Shown one piece after another: positions 8,039 through 43,720 of a stretch of 64,000 nucleotides of DNA. Numbering within the stretch: the first letter of the stretch is position 1; each line of letters opens with the position of its first letter. This stretch comes from Halobacteriales archaeon QH_7_66_36 (GTDB taxonomy: Archaea; Halobacteriota; Halobacteria; Halobacteriales; Haloarculaceae). The stretch lies in NCBI GenBank assembly GCA_003021175.1, contig PXQV01000015.1, positions 244,170-308,169 on the forward strand. The letters are read 5' to 3'. The notes beneath the pieces are model-generated. The model was not told the origin of the DNA, ran no database searches, and was given only the letters and a program-made list of their open reading frames with translations. The position numbers and the translations under genes were made by a program.

Positions 8039-8110
8039 GCCTGGGTAGCTTAGCGGTAAAGCGCGTCCTTGGTAAGGACGAGAGCCCGGGTTCAAATCCC
8101 GGCCTAGGCT
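8039..8110 (+). tRNA. tRNA-Thr (anticodon GGT)
   Basis: The 72-nt cloverleaf is complete. The acceptor stem pairs GCCTGGG with CCTAGGC (one G-T pair), the D-stem is GCTT/AAGC, and the anticodon stem is CGTCC/GGACG with loop TTGGTAA. The T-arm is CCGGG-TTCAAAT-CCCGG and the discriminator base is T. The anticodon GGT reads ACC/ACU threonine codons. CCA is not encoded. Its 3' half is the integration site of the element that follows; insertion left this copy intact. Confidence 0.95.
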
Positions 8111-8113
8111 CTC
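8068..8113 (+). repeat. attL: 3' end of tRNA-Thr
   Basis: This 46-bp segment covers the anticodon loop through the 3' end of the tRNA plus three bases. It matches 56191-56236 at 41 of 46 positions with no gap, the first 16 bases being identical. An integrase gene begins 190 bp to the right. Together these mark it as the left attachment site of the integrated element. Confidence 0.85.
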
Positions 8114-21628: not shown

Positions 21629-21681
21629 AAGTAACAAATATAAAGATTGTTGTCTCTTCTGGTGACAGGTGTATCGCAGTT

Positions 21682-22080
21682 GTGGCTGACGAGGATTATG
21701 GAATTAAGAACGTAGATGTCCTGGGAGACATGATGTATGCCCTTAACAAACCGGAGAAAATCATTACTTACGACCGTATTGCAAGAGATCATAGATCTAC
21801 GGACATCAGAGATGATATGGATGTTGCAAACTCAACTATATACAATTACAAGGACGAGTTCATGGCGCTGGGATGGATAGATCATGAACTGAACCTGACT
21901 GATGAAGGAGAGTTTGTATACCAGACACTCCAGAGACTTGACGAAGAATATGGCGAATTACTTTACCAACAGGCAAGAGATGAATTCAAACAAGCTGGCG
22001 AAGAAATGATTGATAGAGCTGGCCCAGATGATGACGCGACCGGAGAGATTGATCAAATGGTACAAGACTTGGATGAGTGA
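21682..22080 (+). CDS. Winged-helix DNA-binding protein
   Basis: The 132-residue protein has a winged-helix core (about 10-70: DVLGDMMYALNKPEKIITYDR, then MDVANSTIYNYKDEFMALGWI, and the wing HELNLTDEGEFV). An acidic helical tail follows. The GTG at 21682 is used here; an ATC at 21673 lies 7 bases after GGTGA and would add three residues, echoing the odd starts of the following operon. It probably regulates nearby element genes. Confidence 0.65.
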   Translation: MADEDYGIKNVDVLGDMMYALNKPEKIITYDRIARDHRSTDIRDDMDVANSTIYNYKDEFMALGWIDHELNLTDEGEFVYQTLQRLDEEYGELLYQQARDEFKQAGEEMIDRAGPDDDATGEIDQMVQDLDE

Positions 22081-22349
22081 CAATCTACAACCTCTCTCTC
22101 TTTCTCTTCTCAAGTACATTAGAACTGAGATCAGAAGCAGCGGCATAGTTGATTCTACGTATCCCTGGGTGATCCTGATCACGCCCGCGCTACAAGTGAG
22201 GAGCCAGAGCTTCTGGTTGTAGTCCACTACAGGTTTGGAAACCAGTCTTGATTCTTTTACCAGTTGTCCACTGTTCCAAGTGAAGCCCGGTGTCTCAATC
22301 CTCTACTACCCTTTCCCCATCCAGTGGTTTTCTACAGAGGTGACTCAGT

Positions 22350-23336
22350 ATTCAAGACGAGATCTACAACTTTGATAACTTGGATGAACTCTATGAAACC
22401 GCAGCAGAACTTCCCGAGGTAGACCGGCACGACGTCTACGCACACCACACCGGGGAAGACGAATGGGAGCAGGTACCGTACCGAGACTCGTTGTGGACGG
22501 ATGACGGCAGGGCTACAGGTATAGTCTCCAGCAACCAGGACTTCTACAACATAATCCAGTACGGAGATATCCTGGAAACCGTGGGAGACGCCGTAGATCA
22601 ACGCGGATTGGACGTGAACGGCAGGGTCTCAGTTTCTCCGACAGCGCACAAGATGAGTGCCATGCTTGACTTCGACGAGGAGGTGTACGCGTCCCAGGAC
22701 GACCCTATCGATCTCGGGCTCAAGATCCGGTCGGGGCATAGCGGCTTTCACGGCTTGAAGTACGATGTCGGGGCGGAACGCCAGGTATGCAGTAACGGCA
22801 TGGTGGCCTTCGTATCTGACCTGCACTTCGACCAGACGCATGGCGAGCCGTTCCAGCCAGGGTTAGCGTACAATGCCGTGGATGCAGTTGTCGAGAGCCC
22901 GGCAGTGATTGAGCATCGTTTGGCGCAGGCGCAGAACCGGGAACTGTTGAACCAGGATGAAGCCCTGCTGGTATTGATGGATACGGGGATTGACCGGTAC
23001 CTTGATCAACCGGTGCCTGACCTGTTGAACGCGTTGCATAGTGAAGTCGAGGACCCGGAGAGCCCGACGCTTTACGAGACGTACAACGCGGGCACACGTG
23101 CCCTAACACACTACACTCGGGACGTACCGGACTACGAGCTCGACGACGGCTTCGAATCCCTGTCCCGGTTACTGGAGACAGGAGGCTCCGAGATACCCGA
23201 ACCGGAGAATCTTGGTAGAAGCACAGTCGACCGACGGAGCCGTGAACTGATCGAACAGGGAGACTCCGAGCCGTACTGGGAAGACGAGGTCGAAACCCTT
23301 CGAGAACTCAGAGAAGAGCACGAACTACGAGCGTAA
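22350..23336 (+). CDS. DUF932 family protein with AUU start
   Basis: The 328-residue protein matches DUF932 (phage/plasmid-related) in its core: VSPTAHKMSAMLDF, LGLKIRSGHSGFHGLKYDVGAERQVCSNGMVAF, then a helical C-terminal half. The in-frame stop at 22341 leaves only ATT at 22350 or TTG at 22380 as starts. The ATT lies exactly 6 bases after a GGTGA ribosome-binding site and gives MQDEIYNFDNLDELYETA. DUF932 proteins occur on plasmids, phages and conjugative elements, with unknown function. A GTGATC-ct-GATCAC palindrome lies upstream at 22169-22182. Confidence 0.75.
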   Translation: MQDEIYNFDNLDELYETAAELPEVDRHDVYAHHTGEDEWEQVPYRDSLWTDDGRATGIVSSNQDFYNIIQYGDILETVGDAVDQRGLDVNGRVSVSPTAHKMSAMLDFDEEVYASQDDPIDLGLKIRSGHSGFHGLKYDVGAERQVCSNGMVAFVSDLHFDQTHGEPFQPGLAYNAVDAVVESPAVIEHRLAQAQNRELLNQDEALLVLMDTGIDRYLDQPVPDLLNALHSEVEDPESPTLYETYNAGTRALTHYTRDVPDYELDDGFESLSRLLETGGSEIPEPENLGRSTVDRRSRELIEQGDSEPYWEDEVETLRELREEHELRA

Positions 23337-23347
23337 GGTGATACACA

Positions 23348-23674
23348 ATTACAGACTACGATGAAGAAGATCCTATCGCGGAGTGGGAGGCTGCTTTTCT
23401 TCCTGATTGGGAGTGGGAGGCCTACGACAAGGAGGATGACGGCCTGTACTTTGGCCGGGTTCGATCCCCTAACACGTACGGGAATTGGGAGTACGGCTAC
23501 TTCTCCCAAGAGCAACTTGAGAAGGCGGGTGCCTACAGGACGGATCTAGATCCGGAGGACGATGCGCCGTTGTTCCCTGACGGCGGCGAAGTAGAGATTG
23601 AGGATATTGTCGGCGTGTACGAAACCGAGTTGGAAGCGTTGCTGGAGGAAGGTGATCCACAATACAGGGAGTAG
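23348..23674 (+). CDS. DUF2958-like protein with AUU start
   Basis: The 108-residue acidic protein has the DUF2958 pattern GLYFGRVRSPN, then YGYFSQEQLEK. This family often sits beside DUF932 on mobile elements. No ATG, GTG or TTG precedes the conserved core in this frame. The ATT at 23348 lies exactly 6 bases after AAGGTGA, itself overlapping the stop region of the DUF932 gene. The following gene begins 13 bases before this gene ends. The function is unknown. Confidence 0.65.
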   Translation: MTDYDEEDPIAEWEAAFLPDWEWEAYDKEDDGLYFGRVRSPNTYGNWEYGYFSQEQLEKAGAYRTDLDPEDDAPLFPDGGEVEIEDIVGVYETELEALLEEGDPQYRE

Positions 23675-24120
23675 ATGAACTCCTCGAAGAGTACGCGGAG
23701 CAGAAACGGTACGTGGAAGAGGAGAAGCCGTTCTGGATGAACCTTACCGGCGGTACTTTCTCCGGCGAACTCCGGTACGAGCTGGAGAATTACTTCCCCG
23801 AGGTGCATTACAAGAAGGCGATTGACCAGGCCTTCAGAGAAGAGGCAGAGGACGAGGTGCTGCCGGATGGCGGGAGTAGGACGCAGTATTACTGGAGCGG
23901 GGAAGACGGAGTCGTATACCATACCGAATCAGGAGACGAACTGGTCGACCCTTTCTTCGGCTCCGTAGAGGAAGCAGAACGATACTTGGAAAATCTGGCT
24001 GATCTCCACGGGAAAGAACAGTACACCGGAATGGTGCTGCGAAAATCCGGGAACAGAAAAGTTGAGGAAGCAACCGAGGTGCTGACAGAGCAGAGCGGCC
24101 TCAGCGATTTCAAATTTTAG
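23662..24120 (+). CDS. Hypothetical protein with AUA start
   Basis: The 152-residue acidic protein is not recognised. It has an N-terminal helix (VDELLEEYAEQKRYVEEEK), a beta-rich middle, and a helical end. The frame opens after a TGA at 23653. ATA at 23662 lies 6 bases after a GGTGA within AGGTGATCC, a 9-base match to the archaeal 16S anti-Shine-Dalgarno. Starting at GTG 23713 would discard a coding-looking helix. The 13-base overlap with the DUF2958-like gene indicates one operon. Confidence 0.6.
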   Translation: MQGVDELLEEYAEQKRYVEEEKPFWMNLTGGTFSGELRYELENYFPEVHYKKAIDQAFREEAEDEVLPDGGSRTQYYWSGEDGVVYHTESGDELVDPFFGSVEEAERYLENLADLHGKEQYTGMVLRKSGNRKVEEATEVLTEQSGLSDFKF

Positions 24121-24451: not shown

Positions 24452-25132
24452 CTACTCTGAAAGGAACTCCAATCCATCAAACCGATTCAGAAGGCCTCCT
24501 TCCACAATATGTGTCGGTGTCCGTGGGAGGAGCAGGCATTGTTCACAGAAACCGTCGCAGACACAGTTATCCAGGGAAGCTCTGGTCTCCAGTAGAAAGT
24601 CCTCTAGATCCTGGTACACTGCATGGGATAGACCAGCTCCACCGACATCCGCATCGTGTACAATTAGTTGTACGAACCGTTGGGACATGGTCACAGAGCA
24701 TTGAATGTCCAAGCTGTCAACCCCGAGTCTGCGGGAGATTATTGATCTAAGACCGTAACCCGCTGAATAAGCTGCTGTCATCGCTCGCCTGTTGTCGTTT
24801 GAGCCCAGTTTTGATCTGAGATCTTCTATCCTGTGGAGAAAGACGATACCATCTGTCGGATGTTGGTGACCCGGAATTGCATGATCCCATTGAACCTCTC
24901 CGTCCTCGAATTTCAGGATGTCTCCTTTTGCGTCTTCTACGTTGCTGTTGGAAAAGTAGCTGATCTCAACCTTAGGCACTGTACTTCTCACCTTGAGATT
25001 CGATACGAAACGGATGTACAGATCCTTGAACTCCGTCTCATCCAGTGTCTCCGAATCTCTGGAGAGACCTCCCTCTATCTCTTCTTCGTCTAAATTCAGG
25101 GCTTCTTTGAAATTCTCCGAGAATTCAGTCAA
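24452..25132 (-). CDS. Stand-alone DUF1998 (MZB-like) protein
   Basis: The 226-residue protein matches the DUF1998 C-terminal module of large helicases: RFVQLIVHDADVGGAGLSHA, a helix, and the Cys set CVCDGFCEQC (190-199) expected to bind zinc. In COG1205/YprA helicases this module follows the motor, and in DISARM it is in DrmB. Here it is a separate gene overlapping the helicase stop by 4 bases (ATGA), so the two products probably act together. It is the last gene of the leftward defence operon. Confidence 0.75.
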   Translation of the reverse strand: MTEFSENFKEALNLDEEEIEGGLSRDSETLDETEFKDLYIRFVSNLKVRSTVPKVEISYFSNSNVEDAKGDILKFEDGEVQWDHAIPGHQHPTDGIVFLHRIEDLRSKLGSNDNRRAMTAAYSAGYGLRSIISRRLGVDSLDIQCSVTMSQRFVQLIVHDADVGGAGLSHAVYQDLEDFLLETRASLDNCVCDGFCEQCLLLPRTPTHIVEGGLLNRFDGLEFLSE

Positions 25133-28100
25133 AAGTCAACACCTCGCATTATCAGCGGCCGGGTTCTCTTTCGAGACCTGGATGATTTTAACACCGCACC
25201 GAGGTACTCATGAACGCTAATTTCCTCCAGGTCCTCTTCACAGAGCGGACAAATCTTTAGATCTGGGTACTCGTTATAGGGAAGAATACATGATTGGTTG
25301 GTGCAGACGCTAGTTGAGAAGATCTCATCCCGGCTTACCTGAGCACTCTTTACTTCGTAGTCTACCCCTCCGTACGTATCCATGGCTTCCGGATATGATT
25401 CTCTCAGTGCTTGAGAGACACTTTTAGACTCATAGCTGAGGTGAACTTGGCCATCTTCTTCGCTTTCTTTCTCTCGGAAGAGAGCCACAGAGTCATCGGT
25501 AGAACGGTACTGACTAATCATCCCAGCACTGGAAAGAAGCATTGGGAGATAGCCTACTTCTCTCTCAAGTTCTTGCAGGATTTCCTCTTGGATGACTCTT
25601 CGTCTTCTAAGTCCTTTCGCGCCTTGCCCTGTTTCTTTTTCCAATGCACGGAACGTAGTGTAGAACTTGAAAAGTCGCCGTAGGACACGCTGTTTAACTT
25701 CAGAAGGACTGTCAAAGAGATCCTCCAAAGCCTGATCCAAATCCTCCCTATCCGCCTCAAAGGCTTCTTTGAGATGTTCCTCTATTGCACCTCGATGGTC
25801 GTCTACGGTATCTAATAGTGCTTCCACGCCGTCATAGACGTCATTTATCACCTCGTCGATGTCCTGGCCTGTCTCAAACCGTTCAAATCTTCCGTAGTCT
25901 AGATCCCGCAGGTTAAGATACGTGAGGACTTCGGACATGACCTGTGTCTTGAGGATGTCGTAGTTGAGATGGTTGATTTGTACAGGTTTTGAAGATGCAT
26001 TTAGGAATCGATTTTCTATATCTTCAAAGTAGAAGTTATCCACTGCGTTGTGCGGTCGAGCCACTGTAAAGACCATCGAGGAGCGGTCCAGACTACGTCC
26101 TGTACGTCCGGCTCGCTGAACATAGCTTGTCTTCGTAGGCGGTATGCCCAGACCTGCGATACAGTCCAGTGTCCCAATGTCAATACCTAGTTCAAGAGTA
26201 TTCGTCGCAGAGACAACATTGATTTTTGGCGGGTTGGCTCCAAATCCTTCCTCAATCTTGTTCCGGGTATCCGTTTTAATCCCTGCCTTGTGGACCGCGC
26301 TCACTAATGGGTCGACACCATGGCCGAGGACTACCTTCCCCCAGTGATCTAGCGTGTACTCTTCTCCTTCGAAGTTCTCCTGGTCGAAAGAATTTCGGTC
26401 GACTCCAACTGTATGTTCACCGCAGTCAGGGCAGTAGCTTCGTTCCCAGAATGGCCAGCCGGAGTAGCAGAATTCGCAGATGCGGACTTCTCTCTGGACA
26501 GTGAGCTCGAGGAAGTTCCGTCTTAAAGTAAGGACTGTAACCACTTCATCGCCAGATCGCTCTCTTTCTCGACTGACGATGTCTGCTTGTTCTAAAACAG
26601 ACAATGCTTCGTCAAGCTTGGCATCAAGGTCAGGTGCCGAATCAAAGTACGTGGGAACTGAGTTCGAGAGCTTTGATCTGAGGGAGTCAATCTTTATACT
26701 ATTGCTTTGATCTAGATCGGTATGAGGCTTGAACGCTAGAATTTTCACTACTTCGTTGGCCAGTAGATTGATCTCGTTGTTCTCTGATTCAGGCCTAACG
26801 CTGATAATCCCAGCATCCCACAACTTCCTGTGATTCCCTTTGTTGAGAGGGTTAGCTAGTCCACCCAGTTGTGAGAAGAGGCCTTGAGATAGGGTTTCAT
26901 CTTCTAAGTACGTGTAGGGCTGTTTCACATAGCTTTCTTTCAGCTTTTCATAGAGATCTTCTCTCAAGTTCGAGGCAGAGTAGAACTGGTCCTGATTTTC
27001 ATCCAGTAAAGAGATCATCATTCGCTCGCTTTCCAGAGAGTAATCTAGTTTCATCATGAGCGAGCCGACTCCTTCTGCATCTCCCCTCCGGTTGGAGAAA
27101 ACCAGTACTTTCCCTGCTCCGAATTCCTTCATATCCCGTCCCAGTTGGGACAGGAAGTAGGATAGGAAAGTAGTGGTCTGCATAGGAGGTTCGGTGTAAC
27201 TTCGGTTGGAGCAGGAGCAAGGTTCCGCAATAGCGTATTCTTCCCCGCGATCCTCGTAATATGGAGTATGACAGTTAGAGCAAAAACGGACTTCACGAAG
27301 CGAGTGGTTATTCCTACCACTCTCTGAAACTCGCTCTGTGAACATACTCTGACAATCGGGGCAGTAGTAGAAGTTCACGTACGGCTTGATAAAGTAGTGA
27401 TACCGGTCATAGAGAACACCGCCTAGTTTACACCACTCCAGCAGGTTCGTCAAAGTTTCAAATTGCTTCTCTTGATCAACATCAGAGAAAATTTCCTCCA
27501 ATAGTCTCTCGACCTCGATAAAGTTCTCCTCCCCAAACTGCTGGAATATCTCTGATATTTGGGGGATCTGATTGACTAGTTTCTCGGCAATCTGCTCTCT
27601 AAATTTCAGTACCTCATTGAATACCGACTGAAGCTCATTTTCTTCTATAGCGTCTCGTCCCTTTATTTCCTCCAAGAGATCTTCGGCATGCGGCGTTGTA
27701 TTGTGCTCCTTGTCAAGGTAACCAAGACGTAGCAAGAGATCTAGAGTAGCATCTATTTCCTCTTCCGAGCACTCTACTAACTCCATCAATTCAGCCTTAT
27801 CCGGGTTCTCTTCTTCAATTGCCCTCAGTATCCGGAAGCCATCTTGTGGAGATAAGACATCTAATGAGATTAGATTTCCTCCACTGCGCACACTGGTTTC
27901 TACATTACCTGCCTCAAAATCTATATGACTTATATCGTGTTCAGGACGGTTAAGAAGGTCAGATGCGAACTCTCCAGGGTTGGCAATGGTGGCGCTAGCC
28001 AGTACCATTGTAGAACTGTACCGGTTCTTTAGTCGACTGATGAACTGGGATATGGCCTTTCCCCCATTGCCGTTCCAGACGTGGGCCTCATCGAAAATAA

Positions 28101-28974
28101 CGAGATCCAGCAGGTCGGAGTTGACCAAGTCTCTGGAGTCTGACGAAAAGAATCTGAATTCGAGAGCTTCAGGATTGGTCAGTAAGATATCTGCGCCGTT
28201 TTCCTCAATATCATCTCGGGTAAGTTCCAAGAAGTCAATTTCTACCGGTCTCCGGTGTTCATCAGTGTTGGTACAAACCATTGTACCGGAGTCCTGATCC
28301 CATCCCAGTTTCTGACCACACTCCGGGCATTCAAGCCCCCGTACGTTCTGGCCACCCGTGATTTTGTACTGCCCTCGTGGTGTATCACCATCGTAGATCC
28401 CTATTTTGACCTCTTCAGTACCGGTTCGCTGCTTGTTTATTTCATACGTGTACTTCACTAAACGGTCTAATTGGTCCGTTTCCAGCGCCTTCTGCGGATA
28501 TATGATGAGTGACTTTATTTGGCGGGGAAATTCGCGTTCTTGCTGATTGCTTATAGCCGTGTCTAACGCCGGGATAACGAAGCATTCCGTCTTCCCCGTA
28601 GCCGTTGGAACAGTAATGATCATATCATCATCTGTGTCGCCATGAACAGAATCTAAGATAGATCCAACAGCTTTCCCTTGGTGACGGTAAAGCCGACCAT
28701 CACCCCCTCCGAACACTACATCCCTTATCGCTGATTGAACCTCTTCTTGAATACCATGTCTTTCACAGTAGTCTGGCCAGGACTGATTTGAGAATTTTGG
28801 AGGTTGCACCTTTTCGAGATAAGGCCCCTTCACCTGCACTAAGTTTCGGATAAACTCGTCGTAGTTCGAGATCGTATCCTCATTGAGTTTGGTTAATCCC
28901 TTGTTCCACCAGATGGTCTCCGTTAGATGGTCAATAGACCGATTTTTCACATCAAGGATGTTCATTTGAACCAC
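25129..28974 (-). CDS. Large DEAH-box helicase with zinc clusters (DrmA/DpdJ/YprA-like)
   Basis: The 1281-residue superfamily 2 helicase has Walker A VPTATGKTE (122-130), DEAH in LVIFDEAHVW (near 295) and SAT in LASATI. Its second RecA domain shows VLVFSNRRGDAEG, SATNTLELGIDIG and QRAGRTGRS. Four or more Cys clusters are seen (CPECGQKL, CPDCQSMF/CSNCHTPYY, CEFCYSGW/CPDCGEHT, CTNQSC/CPLCEEDL). The DUF1998 module that normally closes this type is encoded by the next gene. Helicases of this type are core parts of DISARM, and large helicases occur in bacterial Dpd clusters; here it probably recognises and unwinds unmodified invading DNA. Confidence 0.85.
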   Translation of the reverse strand: MVQMNILDVKNRSIDHLTETIWWNKGLTKLNEDTISNYDEFIRNLVQVKGPYLEKVQPPKFSNQSWPDYCERHGIQEEVQSAIRDVVFGGGDGRLYRHQGKAVGSILDSVHGDTDDDMIITVPTATGKTECFVIPALDTAISNQQEREFPRQIKSLIIYPQKALETDQLDRLVKYTYEINKQRTGTEEVKIGIYDGDTPRGQYKITGGQNVRGLECPECGQKLGWDQDSGTMVCTNTDEHRRPVEIDFLELTRDDIEENGADILLTNPEALEFRFFSSDSRDLVNSDLLDLVIFDEAHVWNGNGGKAISQFISRLKNRYSSTMVLASATIANPGEFASDLLNRPEHDISHIDFEAGNVETSVRSGGNLISLDVLSPQDGFRILRAIEEENPDKAELMELVECSEEEIDATLDLLLRLGYLDKEHNTTPHAEDLLEEIKGRDAIEENELQSVFNEVLKFREQIAEKLVNQIPQISEIFQQFGEENFIEVERLLEEIFSDVDQEKQFETLTNLLEWCKLGGVLYDRYHYFIKPYVNFYYCPDCQSMFTERVSESGRNNHSLREVRFCSNCHTPYYEDRGEEYAIAEPCSCSNRSYTEPPMQTTTFLSYFLSQLGRDMKEFGAGKVLVFSNRRGDAEGVGSLMMKLDYSLESERMMISLLDENQDQFYSASNLREDLYEKLKESYVKQPYTYLEDETLSQGLFSQLGGLANPLNKGNHRKLWDAGIISVRPESENNEINLLANEVVKILAFKPHTDLDQSNSIKIDSLRSKLSNSVPTYFDSAPDLDAKLDEALSVLEQADIVSRERERSGDEVVTVLTLRRNFLELTVQREVRICEFCYSGWPFWERSYCPDCGEHTVGVDRNSFDQENFEGEEYTLDHWGKVVLGHGVDPLVSAVHKAGIKTDTRNKIEEGFGANPPKINVVSATNTLELGIDIGTLDCIAGLGIPPTKTSYVQRAGRTGRSLDRSSMVFTVARPHNAVDNFYFEDIENRFLNASSKPVQINHLNYDILKTQVMSEVLTYLNLRDLDYGRFERFETGQDIDEVINDVYDGVEALLDTVDDHRGAIEEHLKEAFEADREDLDQALEDLFDSPSEVKQRVLRRLFKFYTTFRALEKETGQGAKGLRRRRVIQEEILQELEREVGYLPMLLSSAGMISQYRSTDDSVALFREKESEEDGQVHLSYESKSVSQALRESYPEAMDTYGGVDYEVKSAQVSRDEIFSTSVCTNQSCILPYNEYPDLKICPLCEEDLEEISVHEYLGAVLKSSRSRKRTRPLIMRGVDF

Positions 28975-33760: not shown

Positions 33761-35659
33761 TTAGTCTCGCCTCCATATAGCAACAGGGACCACGGATTCT
33801 TCGATAGATACCCCTCCGTGAATCCAGAGATCAGAATTTTGAGTACCAAACTTAGCATTAGGATTGTTAGGATTGGTCATCACACAGTCTTCATTACTGT
33901 CAGGCAACCCAACCTCAATATAGCTTACGTTGACATCAGAGAGTTCACCCTGTACTGCCTCGGTGTCATCGACGAATGTTCCCCGGCAGTGACGCATCTC
34001 TCTCTGGTCTGCCTCACTGGGTCGAGGAATAGCTTCCGACTCGTAGGTCTCCACCATCCCATGGTCAGACGTAATCAGTATATCCGCTAAACCACCGTAT
34101 TTTTCGATAAACTCCGGGATATTATCTCTGAGATGCCCCTCGATTTTTCGATGGATATCAGTCGGATAATGAGCGCCTTGGTCTATTTTTGTGTCGTATA
34201 GGATGACGGATTCGCCACTCTGTAGCATTCCAAGCAGTTCATCCTCCCTTTCTTCCCCCAGAAACGCATCGATGTCGATCCCTGTCAATCGATCCTCATT
34301 ATTTGAAAAACCGCCTAATTCCGTGAAATCATATTGTTGACTAAGCTGCGGCATGAACACTTTCGTCACTGATGGAGCCGGAGCAACTGCCTGTTTAATT
34401 TCCCAGCGTTGATCGGTCTCACGTTCAGAAAGGAATTCTTCTGTCTCGGGGGCAATAGTCGGCAGACCGTCGAGAAGAATAACTATCTTTGGACCCTCCT
34501 CTCCTAAGAAATCGGCAACTTGATCGTAGTTGTAGGTGGGTTCGATTCCGTCTTGCTTGAATTTCTCCAGCAGGACTCTTGAAACATATCCTTTATCAGT
34601 TGAAGAGACATCTTGGCGGTAGTTTTTTAATACTTTTAACGTGGCTGCACTATGGTCTGCAGCCTCTAAACACGCTATAGCACTCAGAGCAACTAACACA
34701 CTTCTTGCAGAGTTTGATTCGAGATTCTCCACAATAAAGTTGGATCTCTTTAAGAACTCTTCTATCTCTTCTATTTGACTAACTTGGTCAAGTACGTGTT
34801 CAGGTTCTGATTCTAGGATATCTCGTAGCGAGGACTCCATCTGGCTCTCGAAATCCTCGATCCGAAGTATGCCTATTAGATTCGGGATTTCACTGAACTG
34901 ACTAATATTAAAATTGTCTGCCGATATTCCGTCAAGTATGTCTTCGAATATTTGATCGTCTGACTGGAGATTGATCTGTCTGGGAATTTCTCCGAACAAA
35001 TCCGAGAAGTCTTGCCGCCTGAACCGCCTACCCTGCCTGTCTTTCAGTTCCTGTGCAGCCACGTACCGAAGTAATTCATCGTTTGGTTTTAGGAGAAGAT
35101 CCTGTTCGATTTCACTCAATGACCAGAGCCCCTTGGTATCGATTATTTTTTGAAGATCGTTCGGACGGAGTCCTTCACCACTCAAGAACTCAGTAAAGAG
35201 TGATCGCTCCTGAAGATATTCGTGTATGATTAGTCGATTCCTCCTATCTGAGATGTTCTCTGTCTCAAGAAGGTTTTCCGCTGCCTGTCCGAACGAGATT
35301 TGCTCGGATTTATACACTGTATCCAAGTGGCTAGTCCAGCGACCATCTCGGCTTTTGAGGAGTTCCCACTCCCAGTTTTTGCAGAGCAATATGATTTTGT
35401 GGGCTTTGACCCAACCCATCACCTGCTTTCCGGCTTCAGGCTTGGCCAGTATGATATCTTCTTGACCAGAGATGTCGACGCAGTTGACGACACCGATGGC
35501 AGGATCGAATTCATCGAGATTTCCGAGATTCCGTCGCTGAAGATTGGATATCTCTCTTTCTAACTCCTCGATGACTTCCTCTTTCTCTTCAGGAGTAGAG
35601 TAGGTGATAACCACTCCCCATGAAGAACCCATCTCTGAAGGATTGAAGTCAAGATTCAT
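33761..35659 (-). CDS. pglZ-like: PglZ-domain protein
   Basis: The 632-residue protein carries the PglZ alkaline-phosphatase-superfamily core in its C-terminal half. The metal-binding ILLDGLPTI strand (about 405), ILITSDHGMVET (Asp532-His533) and the closing HGGVSIEESVVPV (from 614) are all present. The N-terminal 350 residues are helical and variable. PglZ is the signature protein of BREX and phage growth limitation systems. No PglX methyltransferase accompanies it here; the divergent operon makes 7-deazaguanine enzymes instead. Two bases separate it from the winged-helix gene upstream. Confidence 0.85.
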   Translation of the reverse strand: MNLDFNPSEMGSSWGVVITYSTPEEKEEVIEELEREISNLQRRNLGNLDEFDPAIGVVNCVDISGQEDIILAKPEAGKQVMGWVKAHKIILLCKNWEWELLKSRDGRWTSHLDTVYKSEQISFGQAAENLLETENISDRRNRLIIHEYLQERSLFTEFLSGEGLRPNDLQKIIDTKGLWSLSEIEQDLLLKPNDELLRYVAAQELKDRQGRRFRRQDFSDLFGEIPRQINLQSDDQIFEDILDGISADNFNISQFSEIPNLIGILRIEDFESQMESSLRDILESEPEHVLDQVSQIEEIEEFLKRSNFIVENLESNSARSVLVALSAIACLEAADHSAATLKVLKNYRQDVSSTDKGYVSRVLLEKFKQDGIEPTYNYDQVADFLGEEGPKIVILLDGLPTIAPETEEFLSERETDQRWEIKQAVAPAPSVTKVFMPQLSQQYDFTELGGFSNNEDRLTGIDIDAFLGEEREDELLGMLQSGESVILYDTKIDQGAHYPTDIHRKIEGHLRDNIPEFIEKYGGLADILITSDHGMVETYESEAIPRPSEADQREMRHCRGTFVDDTEAVQGELSDVNVSYIEVGLPDSNEDCVMTNPNNPNAKFGTQNSDLWIHGGVSIEESVVPVAIWRRD

Positions 35660-37076: not shown

Positions 37077-37940
37077 ATGAGAGCAACCATTAGACCAGTC
37101 TCGCTCAGCCGCATTGCAGAAGTAGTGGACATCTGTAACAGGTCGGAAGTGTCGAAAAAAGACTTGGAAGACTTGTTGGATGCCTCTTCAGGGCGTGTCA
37201 ACGAGATTACTGCAGAGATGGAAAGATTGGATTTGATACAGGGCGATGAGTCAGTTGTACTAACAGACCAAGGGGACGCTCTCCACGGCTTTCTAAAAAA
37301 CGAAGAATGGGAGTCAGTCCACGAGGTTCTATATGAAGGAGGCCCACATTATCGCACTTTCTTAGATTATCTCAGTCAACGTCAATCTAAGAACGGTCTA
37401 ACTGAGGAAGAAATTGTAGAGGCGTTAGAGGATACTGATGAGGATTTAAGATTCAATGCTACGGGTGTATCGTTGCTAACTGACTGGGCTGAGCGCCTTG
37501 GCGCTATTCAACAGAATGTGTTCCAGGGTCGCTATTATTGGGTGGCCGAAGATTTCGAGGGGAGTTTTACTCGAACGCTTCAAGAGATTTACTCAGAGGT
37601 GGAGGTTGAAAGAGGAGTCAATCTACGTCAAAGGTATGTCTCGATACCTAAACTCCGAGAGATGGTCTGTGAAATACTCCAGATTTCTCGGAGCGAATTT
37701 GATGAACTGCTAAATCAGGTTTATTTTGACAACATTGGAGACATGGAACTGAGTGGTGCTCCTCTGAATACTCAGGCAAAGGAGACCAATGTTGGAATCA
37801 AGACTATAAAAAAAGACGATTCAGGCTCTATTACCACTACTAAGATGTCATCAGAACAAATACTTGACGGAGTCACGCTTGAAGATGGAAAAATGTATTA
37901 CTACTTGAGCATATTTGATGAGCTCAACGGAGATGTCTAA
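37077..37940 (+). CDS. Winged-helix domain protein of modification operon
   Basis: The 287-residue protein has an N-terminal helix-turn-helix (VVDICNRSEVSKKDLEDLLD, then RVNEITAEMERLDLIQ) with a wing-like VVLTDQGDALHGF. A second winged-helix-like part follows (about 95-160, GVSLLTDWAERLGAIQQ), then a C-terminal domain of unknown fold (SIPKLREMVCEILQISRSEFD). It lies 2 bases after the first TGT gene and its stop precedes the ATPase ATG at once, so the three are translationally linked. It may bind target DNA for the TGT enzymes. The family is not recognised. Confidence 0.6.
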   Translation: MRATIRPVSLSRIAEVVDICNRSEVSKKDLEDLLDASSGRVNEITAEMERLDLIQGDESVVLTDQGDALHGFLKNEEWESVHEVLYEGGPHYRTFLDYLSQRQSKNGLTEEEIVEALEDTDEDLRFNATGVSLLTDWAERLGAIQQNVFQGRYYWVAEDFEGSFTRTLQEIYSEVEVERGVNLRQRYVSIPKLREMVCEILQISRSEFDELLNQVYFDNIGDMELSGAPLNTQAKETNVGIKTIKKDDSGSITTTKMSSEQILDGVTLEDGKMYYYLSIFDELNGDV

Positions 37941-37941
37941 C

Positions 37942-39105
37942 ATGACCAATTCACAAACACTCCAACAAAAACGCGACTACGAACGTTTCAACCTGTCTCA
38001 AAACCCATTTCCCTACTCTCCAGTCCCCGATGAAGCCCCAGTCGTCTTCACAGGTCAAGACCATGTGAAATCTGAACTCGCCAATGTGCTGGGAACTGCT
38101 ATTTCAACCGGGAAATCTAACCATCTGGTCATAACTGGAAAATATGGGAACGGGAAAAGCCACTCCCTGAAGCATGCGAAGAACATGGTGCAAACCAGTT
38201 CTGACTCTATTGTGGGATATGTGGCTCAACCAGGAGATAGCTTCTTGGATATATACCATGAGTTCATGTATGATCTTGGTCATGAGTTCTTCCAAGACTT
38301 GGCCCACGAGTACCTTGCTAAAGTCGTCTCAGAGCACGATATAGAAACCGAACGAGAGATCAACGGCGCGGACGACATGAGGGCTGCTATAGATAACGGA
38401 GAGGTAATTCTTTCAGATATCATCCCTCTCGCAACCCGAGAACTCAAGGATATAAGCAAGTTTACCGACTTTTCACGAGCCCTAGTGCATCTGGTCTACG
38501 AGGAGACCTCACTCTACGCATGGCAATGGCTTAGCGGTGAAGGACTTCGATATGAGCAGCGAAAAAAGATGGAGATTCACACCGACATTGACGACGATAG
38601 CAAGGCAGTCAAGGCCTTCACCAGCATCAAGAAGCTTTTCCAAGCCTTGGACTACGGCGTGCTCTGCTTATTCATAGATGAGTTCGAATCTATCGCCCGA
38701 CTCAAGCCCAAAAAGAAGCAGAGTGTACTGAACAGTCTCCGCCATGTGATGGACAGAAATCCTGACGGAATTTCCATCCTAATCGCTTGTGCTCCTGAAG
38801 TCTGGCAAGATGTGATGTCTGAATATCATGCCTTCTCAGAAAGGATTGGAAATGAAGTCGCCCTCCGTCCTTTCGATGAGGATCAGATCGAATCCTTGAT
38901 TGAAGACTATCTCTCTGCACATAGCCTTGAGGAAGATGCCTCTCCTAACCCATATACCGAGGCTGCTATCCAAACGTTGCTTAAAAAAGGGCAGGGCAAT
39001 ATCCGCAGAACTATATCCCTCTGTGGTCGAGCACTTGATAACGCAATTGATGCGGAGAAGACCGAAATTGATCAAGACTGTGTTGAAAAAGCACTCTCCA
39101 ATTGA
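37942..39105 (+). CDS. AAA+/STAND-like ATPase of modification operon
   Basis: The 387-residue ATPase has Walker A GKYGNGKS (66-73), Walker B LCLFIDEFES (about 241-250) and an Arg-rich sensor helix near QGNIRRTISLCG. It resembles Orc1-like and BREX BrxD (DUF2791-like) ATPases. In bacterial Dpd clusters an ATPase (DpdB) is required together with DpdA for base insertion. This protein occupies the equivalent position but is not obviously DpdB-like (ParB/DndB type). ATG at 37942 follows GGAG with a 9-base spacer; an upstream TTG/ATG would overlap the previous gene. Confidence 0.7.
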   Translation: MTNSQTLQQKRDYERFNLSQNPFPYSPVPDEAPVVFTGQDHVKSELANVLGTAISTGKSNHLVITGKYGNGKSHSLKHAKNMVQTSSDSIVGYVAQPGDSFLDIYHEFMYDLGHEFFQDLAHEYLAKVVSEHDIETEREINGADDMRAAIDNGEVILSDIIPLATRELKDISKFTDFSRALVHLVYEETSLYAWQWLSGEGLRYEQRKKMEIHTDIDDDSKAVKAFTSIKKLFQALDYGVLCLFIDEFESIARLKPKKKQSVLNSLRHVMDRNPDGISILIACAPEVWQDVMSEYHAFSERIGNEVALRPFDEDQIESLIEDYLSAHSLEEDASPNPYTEAAIQTLLKKGQGNIRRTISLCGRALDNAIDAEKTEIDQDCVEKALSN

Positions 39106-39158
39106 ACCGGTTTCAGCACTTGAACAAGTATATGAAAGATGGGAGCTGAGGTTTCAAT

Positions 39159-40850
39159 ATGTCAAGTAATTCAGATATGAAGTTCTACGTCCCATTCTGG
39201 ATGGATCACGTCTATGATGACTTTGACGAATGGGCAGGGACATGGACGACAGGGTTTCAGCACTACAAATTCCTATGGGAGTTGAACCAGGTATCCCCGA
39301 TGGATGGTGTGCTTATATCGAGAAGTAAGATAGAAGACTCGCCAAGACGCAAGAAGGAAATCAAGGAAGCCGGGGGAGTGAAGAATTTCTTCGACATCCC
39401 AGATGAGTTAGATGTGTTCGGTGACTGTGGTGCCTACAGCTATAGGAAAGAATCAGAGCCACCATACGACCCGGAGGAGACTCTTGAATTCTACGAGGAA
39501 ATGCAGTATGATCAGGCCTGCTCCGTCGACCATCTGATTAACGGTGAGCAGACGGAGGACAAAGAACGGCGTATGGAGATCACGTTATCCAACGCCCGGA
39601 AGATGAGACAGGCCTACGAGGAAGGAGACTACAGTTTCGAACTATACGGTGTTGTCCAAGGCTGGGACCCGGACAGTTATCATCGGGTAGCGAAGGAACT
39701 TATCGAGATGGGCTATGATAAGTTAGCCTTCGGCGGGTTGGTAGGAACAGATACCCGCGATATAATTTCGATTTTGCAGCGATGCTACCCTCTGTGGATG
39801 GACAAGGACGTTGACATCCACGAATTCGGATTGGCTCGATGGGAACTTTTCCCTTTCATGGAACGCTATGGAATCAATTCGGTTGACAACGCATATCACC
39901 GCAAGGCGTGGTTAGACCGTAAGAAAAACTACGAACTTACCCCTGAAAACGAGTACACCGCTGTTCGAATTCCAATCGCAGACCAGTATGCTGAAGAACG
40001 TGAACCAAAAGAGCAGGCAGTATTCGATGAGCTAAAGAGGTATATCAATGATGAATCTGACCCTGAAGACGTGATTGAAACCTTAAGAGACTGGGAAAAG
40101 ACCTATGCAGAAATAGAAGGGAAAGATGGCCGTGTTGAACTGTTTGAAAAGCTGAAGGATGAATATCTTCGGACTCTACGAGAGAAGCCTTGGGAGAAAT
40201 GTAACTGCCATATATGTGATGAATATGGATTACATGTCTGTATTTTCCGGAGAAACGAGCGTAACATGCGACGTGGGTTCCACAACCTGTATCGATTCTA
40301 TCACTACTTCAATGGCTATCTAGAAGGCGAAGTTGAACCGCCACAGAAAATCAATGATTATAGTCAACCCAAGGAGATAGAGGACTTAGATATCGAAGAG
40401 TTCGAGAATGAGTCAGTACTGGTGATTACATCTTGCTCTAAAACAAAGAAATCTGATTCCCCTGGTGACGAGATGCCAGCTGAAGAACTGTATCAGGGCC
40501 GCTTAGTTCAGAACACTAGGGGTCTCTGTAAGGCTACTGGATGGGATCATCGAATCATTTCTGCAAAGTATGGGTTGGTGGAACCAGAGGAACTGATTTC
40601 ACCGTACGAAGAAACTCTTGAGTCGGTTGAGGACTCGGAGAGTCTTCGCCCGAAGGTGCTTCCGGAGTTAGCAGAGATTCTGGATGATTATGACCGGATC
40701 TTAGTCATAGCAGGCAAGTACTATCGTCGGGTAATTGAACCTCTATACGATAACAGAGTTCACATCCTCAATTCAGCGGGTTACCCGGTACTCTGCTCGA
40801 AAATCAAGGAGGCTACGCCGGACAGAGAATCAAAACTGGAAGAGTATTAG
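39159..40850 (+). CDS. dpdA-like: TGT-family transglycosylase fused to DUF6884 (second DpdA-like paralog)
   Basis: The 563-residue protein has a diverged TGT domain (about 1-390) with Asp89 in FGDCGAYSY, FGGLV (191-195) and the nucleophile position Asp243 in SVDNAYH. The zinc set is Cys348-x-Cys350-x2-Cys353 plus His375. After a linker, residues 419-563 form a DUF6884/YaaA-like domain (VLVITSCSKTKK, LYQGRL, IISAKYGLVEPEELISPYE). Such fusions are seen among DpdA-type proteins rather than tRNA enzymes. The added domain may act on the base or on DNA. It ends at the structured leader before the queuosine genes. Confidence 0.8.
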   Translation: MSSNSDMKFYVPFWMDHVYDDFDEWAGTWTTGFQHYKFLWELNQVSPMDGVLISRSKIEDSPRRKKEIKEAGGVKNFFDIPDELDVFGDCGAYSYRKESEPPYDPEETLEFYEEMQYDQACSVDHLINGEQTEDKERRMEITLSNARKMRQAYEEGDYSFELYGVVQGWDPDSYHRVAKELIEMGYDKLAFGGLVGTDTRDIISILQRCYPLWMDKDVDIHEFGLARWELFPFMERYGINSVDNAYHRKAWLDRKKNYELTPENEYTAVRIPIADQYAEEREPKEQAVFDELKRYINDESDPEDVIETLRDWEKTYAEIEGKDGRVELFEKLKDEYLRTLREKPWEKCNCHICDEYGLHVCIFRRNERNMRRGFHNLYRFYHYFNGYLEGEVEPPQKINDYSQPKEIEDLDIEEFENESVLVITSCSKTKKSDSPGDEMPAEELYQGRLVQNTRGLCKATGWDHRIISAKYGLVEPEELISPYEETLESVEDSESLRPKVLPELAEILDDYDRILVIAGKYYRRVIEPLYDNRVHILNSAGYPVLCSKIKEATPDRESKLEEY

Positions 40851-40901
40851 TCCTCATATCATTCATTATCTCTTTGATAGCTGTGTAAGCTACGAGGACT
40901 A
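40848..40901 (+). terminator. Long stem with inner hairpin after second TGT gene
   Basis: Arms TAGTCCTC (40848-40855) and GAGGACTA (40894-40901) are perfectly complementary and enclose a hairpin TAGCT-gtgta-AGCTA (40878-40892). The first arm overlaps the TGT stop codon. It could terminate the upstream transcript or form part of a regulatory RNA with the next stem. Confidence 0.4.
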
Positions 40902-40919
40902 TCCACGGCCTTTATAATT

Positions 40920-40950
40920 GATAAGGCTCCAACCATACTTGGGCCTTATC
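40920..40950 (+). promoter_or_regulatory. Near-perfect stem-loop or operator before RHH-folE operon
   Basis: GATAAGGC-t-CCAA pairs with TTGG-GCCTTATC across a 6-base loop, giving a 12-bp stem with one bulged T. It lies between a TATA-like box (cctttataattg, 40909-40920) and the RHH ATG at 40972. It is either an operator for the RHH protein or an RNA leader; a preQ-type riboswitch fold was not recognised. Confidence 0.5.
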
Positions 40951-40971
40951 CAGAGAACACTAGGTGAGACA

Positions 40972-41160
40972 ATGCCAAAAATAACCGTCGAAATACCTCA
41001 AGAACTTTTAGACGATATGGATGAGCATGTCGGCGATCAAAAGAAGTTTGTAAACCGATCTGATGCTGTGAGAACTTCTATCCGCAAAACGCTGGACATA
41101 ATGGACGACATCGATGCTCGACACGGTCGAATGAAAGACAATAGAACGGAGCAGGAGTGA
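40972..41160 (+). CDS. Ribbon-helix-helix (CopG-like) regulator
   Basis: The 62-residue protein is a single RHH domain (KITVEIPQELLDDMDEHVG, then FVNRSDAVRTSIRKTLDIM) with a charged tail. The ATG at 40972 follows TAGGTGAGAC; the open frame runs further upstream, through the TATA box and stem-loop, and is unlikely to be translated there. It heads the folE-queDEC set and probably autoregulates it by binding the inverted repeat just upstream. Confidence 0.75.
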   Translation: MPKITVEIPQELLDDMDEHVGDQKKFVNRSDAVRTSIRKTLDIMDDIDARHGRMKDNRTEQE

Positions 41161-41168
41161 CATCATTA

Positions 41169-41771
41169 ATGGAATCTAGAACCAAAACAGAAGAGATTCA
41201 AGCTACTGAAGGTAATCTTTCTCAAATCTTTCGAAAACTCATAGAATCAACCAACGAAGATCCCTCCAGAAACGGTTTAGAAGAAACTTGGAAGCGACGA
41301 GCCCCGGAGATGTGGAAAACGGTCACCGAGGGGTATGACGAGTCGAATAAACCCGAAATGACCAGTTTTCCCACAGAAGAAGATGGTATGGTCGTTAAGA
41401 AAGACATCCCGTTCCACTCTCTCTGTGAGCATCATATACTTCCTTTTTCAGGAACAGTACACATCGGATACGTCCCAAATGGCGAAATTATTGGACTGAG
41501 TAAGCTGATTAGATACACCCGTTGGAAGTCCCGAAAACTGAGTACTCAAGAACGTTTAACTCAGGAGATTGCTGAAGGCCTATCCGAGGAGATAGATCCT
41601 GAGGGCGTTATGGTAGCAATTGAGGCCGAGCATATGTGTGAGGCGATGAGAGGTGTCGAAACACCTGACACTACTACGGTTACCACTGTAGCTAAAGCTG
41701 TGTTCGAGGAATCAAGCCAGGGGCAAAATCCAAGAAGAGAGTTCCTTGATCAAATCAATTTTAATAGGTGA
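41169..41771 (+). CDS. folE: GTP cyclohydrolase I (type IA)
   Basis: The 200-residue enzyme shows the FolE signature SLCEHHILPF with zinc ligands Cys86 and His89, GLSKLIR, and the second zinc Cys157 in EHMCEAMRG. It converts GTP to dihydroneopterin triphosphate, the first step to preQ0. Haloarchaea normally use a different enzyme (MptA/FolE2 type) for archaeosine, so this bacterial-type FolE is probably cargo dedicated to the element. ATG 41169 follows GGAGTGA; a GTG at 41157 is possible. It is 7 bases from queD. Confidence 0.9.
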   Translation: MESRTKTEEIQATEGNLSQIFRKLIESTNEDPSRNGLEETWKRRAPEMWKTVTEGYDESNKPEMTSFPTEEDGMVVKKDIPFHSLCEHHILPFSGTVHIGYVPNGEIIGLSKLIRYTRWKSRKLSTQERLTQEIAEGLSEEIDPEGVMVAIEAEHMCEAMRGVETPDTTTVTTVAKAVFEESSQGQNPRREFLDQINFNR

Positions 41772-41778
41772 TTCTCTT

Positions 41779-42216
41779 ATGGGGGACCTTAAAAAGCGGT
41801 TTGAACTCGATGCAGGCCACAGACTTAGTAAACACGACTTTGACTGTCAAAATCTCCATGGTCATCGATACCAGTTCGAAGTAAAGGTTGAGGGCAAAGT
41901 AGACGCAGCGACAGGAATGATCGTTGATTTTGCTCACGTCAAGGAGCCTGTGATGGAAGCCTTCGACCACAACTTCATTCTGAACGCGACTGATCCTATT
42001 CTCTCGGTTAGAGAGGAACTGGAAAAGCAACAAGAGAAAGAATTCTACCTCATAGAGGGTGAGCCAACTGCTGAAAACATCGCAGACGAGGCCTTGGACC
42101 TCATCGAGGAAAGCCTAACCACCGATGAAGAGAACCGTATTGATCAAATCCGAATCCAACTATTTGAAACGCCGAACTCCAGCGTGACCAAGTCGAGGAG
42201 ATTAATTGATGAATGA
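41779..42216 (+). CDS. queD: 6-carboxy-tetrahydropterin synthase
   Basis: The 145-residue enzyme of the QueD/PTPS family keeps the zinc triad His14 (DAGHRL), His27 and His29 (NLHGHR), the catalytic Cys23, and the downstream VDFAHVK and FDHNFIL motifs. It converts dihydroneopterin triphosphate to 6-carboxy-tetrahydropterin, the second step to preQ0. The chosen ATG at 41779 gives the family N terminus; an upstream TTG is in frame but overlaps folE. The queE start overlaps its end by 8 bases. Confidence 0.9.
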   Translation: MGDLKKRFELDAGHRLSKHDFDCQNLHGHRYQFEVKVEGKVDAATGMIVDFAHVKEPVMEAFDHNFILNATDPILSVREELEKQQEKEFYLIEGEPTAENIADEALDLIEESLTTDEENRIDQIRIQLFETPNSSVTKSRRLIDE

Positions 42217-43033
42217 ACGGAACAGCGAGATACCTGTTGCCGAACAGTTCTCCAGCATCCAAGGAGAAGGTCGGTATATGGGCCATCCATCGATCTTTCT
42301 TAGGACTGCCGGATGCAACTTCCTCTGTGGGGGATACCAAGCTGCGGAAGCCTATGATGGAACCGAATACGAAAACCAGACCCGGGCAATGGCTGAGAAG
42401 ATGGGTGAAGGAGATGCGAACTGGGTCTGCGATACTATCGCTGAATGGATGGACGGTGAAGGACGCGAGGTAGCAGAATTATATGAGGAGTGGGACGAAA
42501 ACGGATTTCTGGATAAAATCGAAGACGGAAGCCATATCGTCCTTACTGGTGGAGAACCACTCCTTCACCAAGACGCTATAACAAGTTTTCTTGATTATGT
42601 AGAAGCCCAAGGATATGATCCGTTCGTAGAAGTTGAGACAAATGCTTCGATATACCCGTCTGAAGATTTCAGAAGCCATGTTGATCAGTACAACCTGAGT
42701 CCGAAACTCAGCAATTCAGGATTGAAAGAAGACCTCAGATACAACCCTGAAATCATAGAACAATACGTCAAGGACTTCACTGGAACTCAAGACGAGGCGA
42801 ACACTGATTTCAAGTTTGTAGTGGGAAGTACGGAGGATTGGCGAGAGATAGAATCACAGTTTTTGGACAGGTTCGATATACCGCGAGAAAATACCTTCTT
42901 AATGCCCGCTGGTGCAGATCAAGAAGAACTTGGTCTGACTCGGGAAGATGTAGCAGATCTTGCTATCAACAACTCGGTTAAATTCACGGAAAGACTTCAA
43001 ATCGTAATTTGGGACGAAGCCACAGGTGTATGA
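42209..43033 (+). CDS. queE: 7-carboxy-7-deazaguanine synthase with expanded cluster loop
   Basis: The 274-residue radical SAM protein has the QueE start EQFSSIQGEG, TAGCNFLCGG and later WVCDT, so the cluster motif is Cys36-x3-Cys40-x33-Cys74. Then come LTGGEPLLHQ, VEVETNAS and LSPKLSNS. Most QueE proteins have CxxxCxxC (or a shorter insertion); here about 31 residues are inserted between Cys2 and Cys3. It makes CDG, the third step to preQ0. ATG at 42209 lies inside the queD tail; translational coupling is likely. Confidence 0.88.
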   Translation: MNERNSEIPVAEQFSSIQGEGRYMGHPSIFLRTAGCNFLCGGYQAAEAYDGTEYENQTRAMAEKMGEGDANWVCDTIAEWMDGEGREVAELYEEWDENGFLDKIEDGSHIVLTGGEPLLHQDAITSFLDYVEAQGYDPFVEVETNASIYPSEDFRSHVDQYNLSPKLSNSGLKEDLRYNPEIIEQYVKDFTGTQDEANTDFKFVVGSTEDWREIESQFLDRFDIPRENTFLMPAGADQEELGLTREDVADLAINNSVKFTERLQIVIWDEATGV

Positions 43034-43036
43034 TAT

Positions 43037-43720
43037 ATGACTGAAAAGAACACAACCACGAAAGCATTCGTACTGCTCTCAGGAGGCATTGACTCTGCGG
43101 TCTGTCTCCAAAAAGCATTAAATCAACACGATGAGGTGGAGGCTATCCATTTCAACTACGGCCAGCAAACAGAAGAGATTGAACGAGGCAACGCCCAGAA
43201 ACAAGTGGAACAGGCAGGAATACCTCTCCACGTCTGCGACTACCCGACGGTCTTCAAGGAATTTGCAGAAGGCACAATCGAGGACAAGGAGTACGACAGA
43301 GAAAATATCGCGGAAGAAGGCCATAGTGTGGGATATGTACCTCAGAGAAATCTCCACCTCCTGGTTACAGCAGCTGCAACCGCTGAGCATCACACCGAGA
43401 CGGGCCAAAAAATAGTGCTGTACCACGGTGCTCAGCAAGGGGACGAAGAAGACTATCCTGATTGTAGACCGATATTTATGCAGGCCGCGGAAAAGGCCGT
43501 CAATAGATCCACTGATCAGCATGAGATCGAGATTGAGACGCCAATTATTGATCTCTCCAAGGAGGATGTTCTTCGTCTTGGAGACGAACTTGGTGTTAAG
43601 TGGGAACTGACATTCAGTTGCTACAACGATAAAGAGGGAAAGCCATGTGGTGAATGCCCTGCTTGTGTAGAACGGAAAGAAGCGTTCGATGAGGTCGAGA
43701 TAACAGACCCTGTCATGTGA
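43037..43720 (+). CDS. queC: 7-cyano-7-deazaguanine (preQ0) synthase
   Basis: The 227-residue PP-loop ATPase has SGGIDS (15-20), HFNYGQQ, VPQRNL and the C-terminal zinc cysteines 195, 204, 207 and 210. It converts CDG to preQ0 with ATP and ammonia, completing the pathway. It begins 3 bases after queE and is followed after 6 bases by the nuclease-like gene. QueC-like proteins also occur in other defence systems (Qat), but the adjacent folE, queD and queE show that preQ0 is made here. Confidence 0.92.
   Translation: MTEKNTTTKAFVLLSGGIDSAVCLQKALNQHDEVEAIHFNYGQQTEEIERGNAQKQVEQAGIPLHVCDYPTVFKEFAEGTIEDKEYDRENIAEEGHSVGYVPQRNLHLLVTAAATAEHHTETGQKIVLYHGAQQGDEEDYPDCRPIFMQAAEKAVNRSTDQHEIEIETPIIDLSKEDVLRLGDELGVKWELTFSCYNDKEGKPCGECPACVERKEAFDEVEITDPVM

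Follow-up and report, generated by a model that had tools for sequence, protein, structure and literature searches.

The window analysed here, a 64 000-nucleotide stretch of a 2.6-Mb haloarchaeal genome comprising 18 contigs, carries on its forward strand a cassette of three neighbouring genes, g1, g2 and g3. g1 (22350–23336) encodes a DUF932-like protein of 328 amino acids, starting at ATT 22350 and ending at the TAA stop codon at 23334–23336. g2 (23348–23674) encodes 108 amino acids from ATT 23348 to the TAG at 23672–23674, and g3 (23662–24120) encodes 152 amino acids from ATA 23662. The gap between g1 and g2 is 11 nt, and the last 13 nt of g2 belong to g3 as well. A sequence-only reading of this DNA had proposed that each of the three genes starts at an ATT or ATA lying 6 nt past GGTGA and lacks a plausible ATG, GTG or TTG, and direct reading confirms this arrangement. 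The Shine–Dalgarno (SD) core of g1 is the GGTGA at 22339–22343, within GAGGTGA, that of g2 is the GGTGA at 23337–23341, and that of g3 lies in AGGTGATCC (23650–23658), within the 3′ end of g2; in all three, 6 nt separate GGTGA from the start codon, so that the window shows the strong SD at normal spacing that characterizes AUH-start genes of the infC and ccpN kind, where AUH (ATH in DNA) denotes AUU, AUC or AUA. The match to the SD complement AGGAGGTGATCC extends over 7 nt in g1, 7 nt in g2 and 9 nt in g3, the 16S tail GGATCACCTCC having been read in three cassette-carrying genomes; the 16S gene of the window's own genome is truncated. The frames of g1, g2 and g3 are closed just 5′ of the start by an in-frame TGA at −9 within GGTGA, which is a mechanical result of the 6 nt spacing and not independent evidence. 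Counting the ATH as codon 1, the earliest in-frame canonical codon is TTG 22380 (codon 11) in g1, codon 75, deep within the protein, in g2 and GTG 23713 (codon 18) in g3.

A promoter-like motif of putative function, GAAGCCCGGTGT, is located on the forward strand at 22282–22293, 68 nt 5′ of the ATT of g1. In 20 of 30 homologues a motif of the type GAARY-NN-GGYNT lies 64–73 nt 5′ of the start of g1 (chance expectation approximately 0.005 per 75 bp), and TATA-like stretches were seen by eye in several of the homologues without one. The motif resembles a non-TATA promoter element. The g1 transcript would then have a short leader bearing the SD 5′ of the start.

Of the 391 Halobacteria genomes sampled, which include that of the window, 31 from 20 of 86 genera carry g1, and g2, g3 and a further gene, g4, occur in 19, 23 and five, respectively. 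A g1 profile run against 392 genomes from across the phylum gave five matches, all in the window's own order. Scanning named genomes yielded eight loci, in Halosimplex salinum, Halobellus clavatus, two Halovenus species, Halorubrum vacuolatum, Haloarcula mannanilytica, Halonotius terrestris and one MAG. g4 and g5 are additional cassette genes of other loci, which also start mostly at AUH codons; g4 was not found in the window's genome.

Comparison of the 5′ ends shows the AUH start to be conserved among homologues, as in infC- and ccpN-kind genes. The tallies were counted by hand from the table of 5′ ends. Among 33 distinct 5′ ends of g1, which include the broken frames of loci L026 and L028, 26 have ATH (18 ATT and eight ATC), five ATG and one CTG, and one is unassigned; L052 has no aligned N-terminus. 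The 22 rows of g2 comprise 12 ATT and one ATC (13 ATH), eight ATG and one GTG. For g3, 19 of 20 rows are ATH (nine ATA, eight ATC and two ATT), none is ATG and one lacks a visible site. The four rows of g4 hold three ATA and one probable GTG, and the eight rows of g5 two ATA, five ATC and one GTA. TTG is the start in none of the tallied rows of g1–g5. Loci L078 and L080 share one 5′ sequence and are both counted, and the most distant g3 and g5 starts (L071, L072, L075 and L077) were assigned by SD spacing alone. GGTGA, GGTGG or GGCGA precedes the start in 32 of the 33 g1 rows, L052 not being aligned there. The spacing between SD and start varies among homologues and is mostly 6 or 7 nt, with outliers of 10 nt (g5 of L027) and 8 nt (g3 of L010), and the ATH shifts along with the SD. 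The g2 copy of L011 has no SD and starts with ATG; since an SD precedes most of the ATG-starting g2 copies, SD and AUH tend to go together without being strictly linked. The existence of ATG, GTG and CTG members likewise shows that AUH is not strictly required. Between g1 and g2 in L011 (genome G126), AbrB/MazE-like and PIN-like frames were recognized by eye.

The sequence-only reading had named homologues beginning later, at TTG 22380 or GTG 23713, as the observation that would overturn it, and translation from these downstream canonical codons, with over-extended frames, is the obvious alternative. Both codons are present in frame. The homologues do not overturn the reading: close ones align from residue 1, and where ATG is used in g1 or g2 its methionine falls in the isoleucine column; many homologues have TTA or a different codon in place of the codon-11 TTG of g1, and those of g3 do not conserve its GTG. 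For g2, with its first canonical codon at position 75, the alternative is hardly tenable. The N-terminal stretches are conserved as well: among 11 close homologues per gene, with synonymous differences of about 0.72 per site, pN/pS is 0.32 for codons 2–11 of g1, 0.14 for codons 2–76 of g2 and 0.34 for codons 2–18 of g3, stretches that include the first canonical codon itself and, in g2, one further codon. Judged by these ratios, the codons that require an AUH start are under purifying selection. In addition, the AlphaFold2 model of g1 (built on 30 rows; pLDDT 91.2) confidently places a strand at residues 4–8, before the TTG codon. Downstream initiation is therefore highly improbable. Pseudogenization was also considered and rejected, since most frames are intact and under selection, g1 being broken in L026 and L028. 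Both of these broken copies, L026:6001–6987 with an in-frame stop and L028:6001–6684 with the frame lost, retain the ATT start.

Decoding that enters the frame from upstream was considered in two forms, a frameshift from the GTG within GGTGA and read-through of the TGA from an upstream frame. The sites do offer an in-frame TGA at −9 and, one position further upstream at −10, a GTG, but the 6 or 7 nt spacing places the GTG in differing frames among homologues, and homologues with GGTGG have no TGA and no conserved upstream protein. Movement of the ATH with the variable SD spacing excludes both a fixed frameshift and decoding that starts at the GTG within the SD, and the combined alternative has a negligible likelihood. 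The frame closed just upstream in many copies, the want of any canonical codon in the window's g2 until codon 75, the movement of the ATH with the SD, the purifying selection on codons preceding approximately the first canonical codon and the modelled g1 strand ahead of the TTG all identify the AUH codon as the start, and the AUH starts of g1–g3 are well supported by comparison of sequences.

The repeated spacing had earlier been judged unlikely to be due to chance, and counts over the element-bearing loci agree. With genes called by a crude composition score, ATH was the unique in-frame codon 5–7 nt past GGTGA or GGTGG in 45 of 189 cases; the corresponding figure for the other two frames was five of 373. 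Cassette genes account for most of the 45, and the remaining in-frame SD codons include 15 ATG, eight GTG and five TTG. In 240 kb of the window's own chromosome the same search past GGTGA or GGTGG gave ATH in 0 of 111 in-frame positions versus seven of 220 controls, and a wider SD set on two chromosomes gave no excess of ATH (3/279 versus 11/553 and 8/427 versus 12/850); these chromosome controls are of moderate power for specificity, as few SD-led genes and starts are present there.

These data bear on a neutral explanation, in which a strong SD allows any AUN codon to work in haloarchaea and the third base simply drifts. The SDs are indeed strong and the start codon changes often. Trees of 30 (g1), 18 (g2) and 18 (g3) curated rows require at least 11 changes for g1 (three if ATG is scored against all others), four for g2, three of them between ATG and another codon, and seven for g3, none of them to ATG; the alignments comprise 30, 17 and 18 rows. 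Drift of this kind predicts that AUG should be common, yet it is found in five of 33 g1 rows and none of the 20 g3 rows, although ATA to ATG is a single transition. SD-led genes elsewhere on the elements start with ATG, GTG or TTG, and the chromosomes show no excess of ATH. We consider neutral drift unlikely, and the pattern across the rows suggests selection against AUG in g1 and g3.

Another possibility is that AUH enforces translational coupling, g2 and g3 being made solely by ribosomes that have finished the preceding gene. The 11 nt gap and the 13 nt overlap would suit such an arrangement, as would the proximity of g2 and g3 in most loci; neither g1/g2 nor g2/g3 has the 4-nt or 1-nt overlap of short-overlap termination–reinitiation pairs. 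However, g1 has no adjacent preceding gene and uses AUH nonetheless, and g2 retains ATT where it lies 5.3 kb (L023) or 0.7 kb (L022) from g1. Coupling in Haloferax volcanii is reported to require overlap or a very short distance and to be nearly abolished at about 20 nt (PMC10666635), a limit that counts against coupling. Coupling as the sole reason for AUH is accordingly rejected on the ATT of these copies, and we regard it as very unlikely to account for the pattern.

The reading that we favour, to which we assign a probability of roughly 0.87, is SD-anchored near-cognate initiation at AUH with the ordinary methionine initiator tRNA, attenuating the mobile-element cassette g1–g3. Pairing of the SD with the anti-SD would hold the 30S subunit at the starts of g1–g3, and the ordinary initiator tRNA-Met (CAU) would pair with the A and U of the start codon with a mismatch at the third base, so that the protein would begin with methionine. 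By analogy with bacteria, output may be several-fold below that from AUG, and it would be expected to respond to the fidelity factor aIF1. Retention of the weak start would serve to hold g1–g3, together with g4 and g5 where present, at a low level. A special tRNA borne by the element was rejected as an alternative decoder; no Met or Ile tRNA was found in the window or in the 38 scanned loci. Initiation at AUH by the ordinary initiator tRNA is made plausible by three reports: an extended SD in Staphylococcus aureus supports AUU or AUA at about 10% of AUG output in poor medium (PMC13009471), IF3 restricts codon bases 1 and 2 to Watson–Crick pairs but accepts a wider range of pairs at base 3 (PMC10158994), and in Sulfolobus, by the account in PMC6237735, aIF1 promotes discrimination against non-canonical starts. 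The sequence-only reading had spoken of deliberate weak, SD-dependent initiation. The conserved, SD-linked start stands, and for 'deliberate weak' the support is indirect, namely the rarity of AUG in g1 and its absence from g3 across many lineages; that interpretation is on the whole largely supported. The retention of AUH in many genera suggests that weak translation starts have been kept on purpose.

Comparable starts are known from bacteria. infC is reported to start at AUH codons that limit expression under the control of IF3 in Escherichia coli (AUU) and Streptomyces (ATC) (PMC5472188), and E. coli pcnB starts at AUU according to the title of a reference cited in PMC13009471. These genes share the AUH start with the cassette and differ from it in being single bacterial genes, whereas the mobile cassette has three to five adjacent genes that use AUH; the expression-limiting effect is a feature of the bacterial genes. 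The S. aureus genes cvfC1 (AUU), ccpN (AUA) and infC (AUA) are initiated under the direction of an extended SD, and the AUH starts of cvfC1 and ccpN are conserved between species (PMC13009471). These are again scattered single genes of a bacterium, and their output has been measured. Streptomyces sigR starts at GTC downstream of a long SD; this start is conserved among 32 of 34 species, and IF3 represses it (PMC5472188). The gene resembles the cassette in having a non-canonical start after an SD and differs in that the codon is GUC and a single bacterial gene is concerned. Among archaea, an excerpt of a review of initiation gives AUG, GUG and UUG starts with no mention of AUU (PMC7531240). In the titles and abstract openings of the open-licence literature we recognized no report of AUH starts in archaea, which is weak evidence of absence. 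Archaea have aIF1 in place of IF3. The cassette keeps AUU, AUC or AUA across many haloarchaeal genera and almost never uses GUG or UUG; if the favoured reading is true, near-cognate starts serve archaea as a heritable means of control, as they do in a few bacterial genes, and gene callers limited to ATG, GTG and TTG would truncate or miss such genes. Control of this kind is directly testable, since several of the carriers, among them Halorubrum vacuolatum DSM 8800, Halobellus clavatus and Halosimplex salinum YPL4, are named strains and a tryptophan-regulated strain for depleting aIF1 has been made for H. volcanii (PMC3828320).

A more far-reaching proposal is that AUH serves as an operon-wide regulatory code, by which the proteins would stay silent or low at normal aIF1 stringency and rise jointly once stringency falls, as might happen if viral infection or stress disturbed initiation. 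We consider this quite unlikely. If true, it would define a fidelity-sensing, possibly defensive archaeal gene set in which a DUF932 protein and two small proteins are joined, in some copies, by an ATPase with a HEXXH-type part. A defensive role for the cassette is a guess that draws on the DpdA-type and other defence-like genes present on the window's element.

The identity of the proteins was approached through profiles and predicted structures. g1 scores 22.3 bits against DUF932 (PF06067; gathering cut-off 23), and its homologue in L028 scores 33.7 bits. Between predicted structures, the g1 model matches a BFVD protein named DUF932 with an E value of 4.6e-11 and a TM score of 0.57 (query length), and g1 therefore shows the DUF932 fold in its predicted structure. 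No convincing match to g1 was found in the PDB (best Foldseek E 0.46, best VIA-align Z 5.3). By predicted fold, and nearly so by Pfam score, g1 is a relative of DUF932; towards the DUF932/TIGR03299 family of phages and plasmids its sequence match is weak and its predicted-fold match clear. We know of nothing on start codons in that family. For g2 and g3 no convincing family was found in Pfam, PADLOC, NCBIfam or PHROGs, and the structure model of g3 is poor (pLDDT 56.5). Searches of plasmid proteins with g1 and g3 and of phage proteins with g1 gave no match, and the viral contigs searched contained no relatives of the cassette. g4, a protein of 500 amino acids (L022:8524–10026), combines a sacsin-type ATPase part with a HEXXH-type C-terminal part, both matches being far below the curated cut-offs. 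Just 3′ of the cassette in the same locus lies an extra TBP homologue (L022:10505–11068; Pfam TBP, E 2.4e-28).

The GC content of the window is 66–72% in the first 8 kb, approximately 45–55% from 8 to 56 kb and 65–66% from 56 to 62 kb, and a tRNA-Thr(GGT) gene is located at 8039–8111. The same tRNA gene is present within the fetched tens of kilobases at the cassette loci L100, L106, L109 and L115 of four other genomes. The cassette thus appears to reside on an element integrated beside tRNA-Thr(GGT) in the haloarchaeal chromosome. A wHTH gene lies 5′ of g1 (window 21631–22080; L110:18993–19385); in two relatives it has ATC or ATT after GGTGA or GGTGG, and the window copy has a GTG available as start. 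At 39150–43720 a DpdA-like protein (PADLOC E 6.5e-83) is followed by PTPS/QueD-like and QueC genes, accompanied by a QueE-like frame recognized by eye; this region is likely to be a 7-deazaguanine DNA modification set carried by the element of the cassette. On the reverse strand, two adjoining frames at 24452–28974 match DpdJ/DruE-type helicases, the smaller of which contains an MZB (MrfA zinc-binding) domain. Further defence-like genes on the element are a BrxC/BrxD-like ATPase at 37915–39105 and, at 33761–35659, a frame that matches PglZ weakly.
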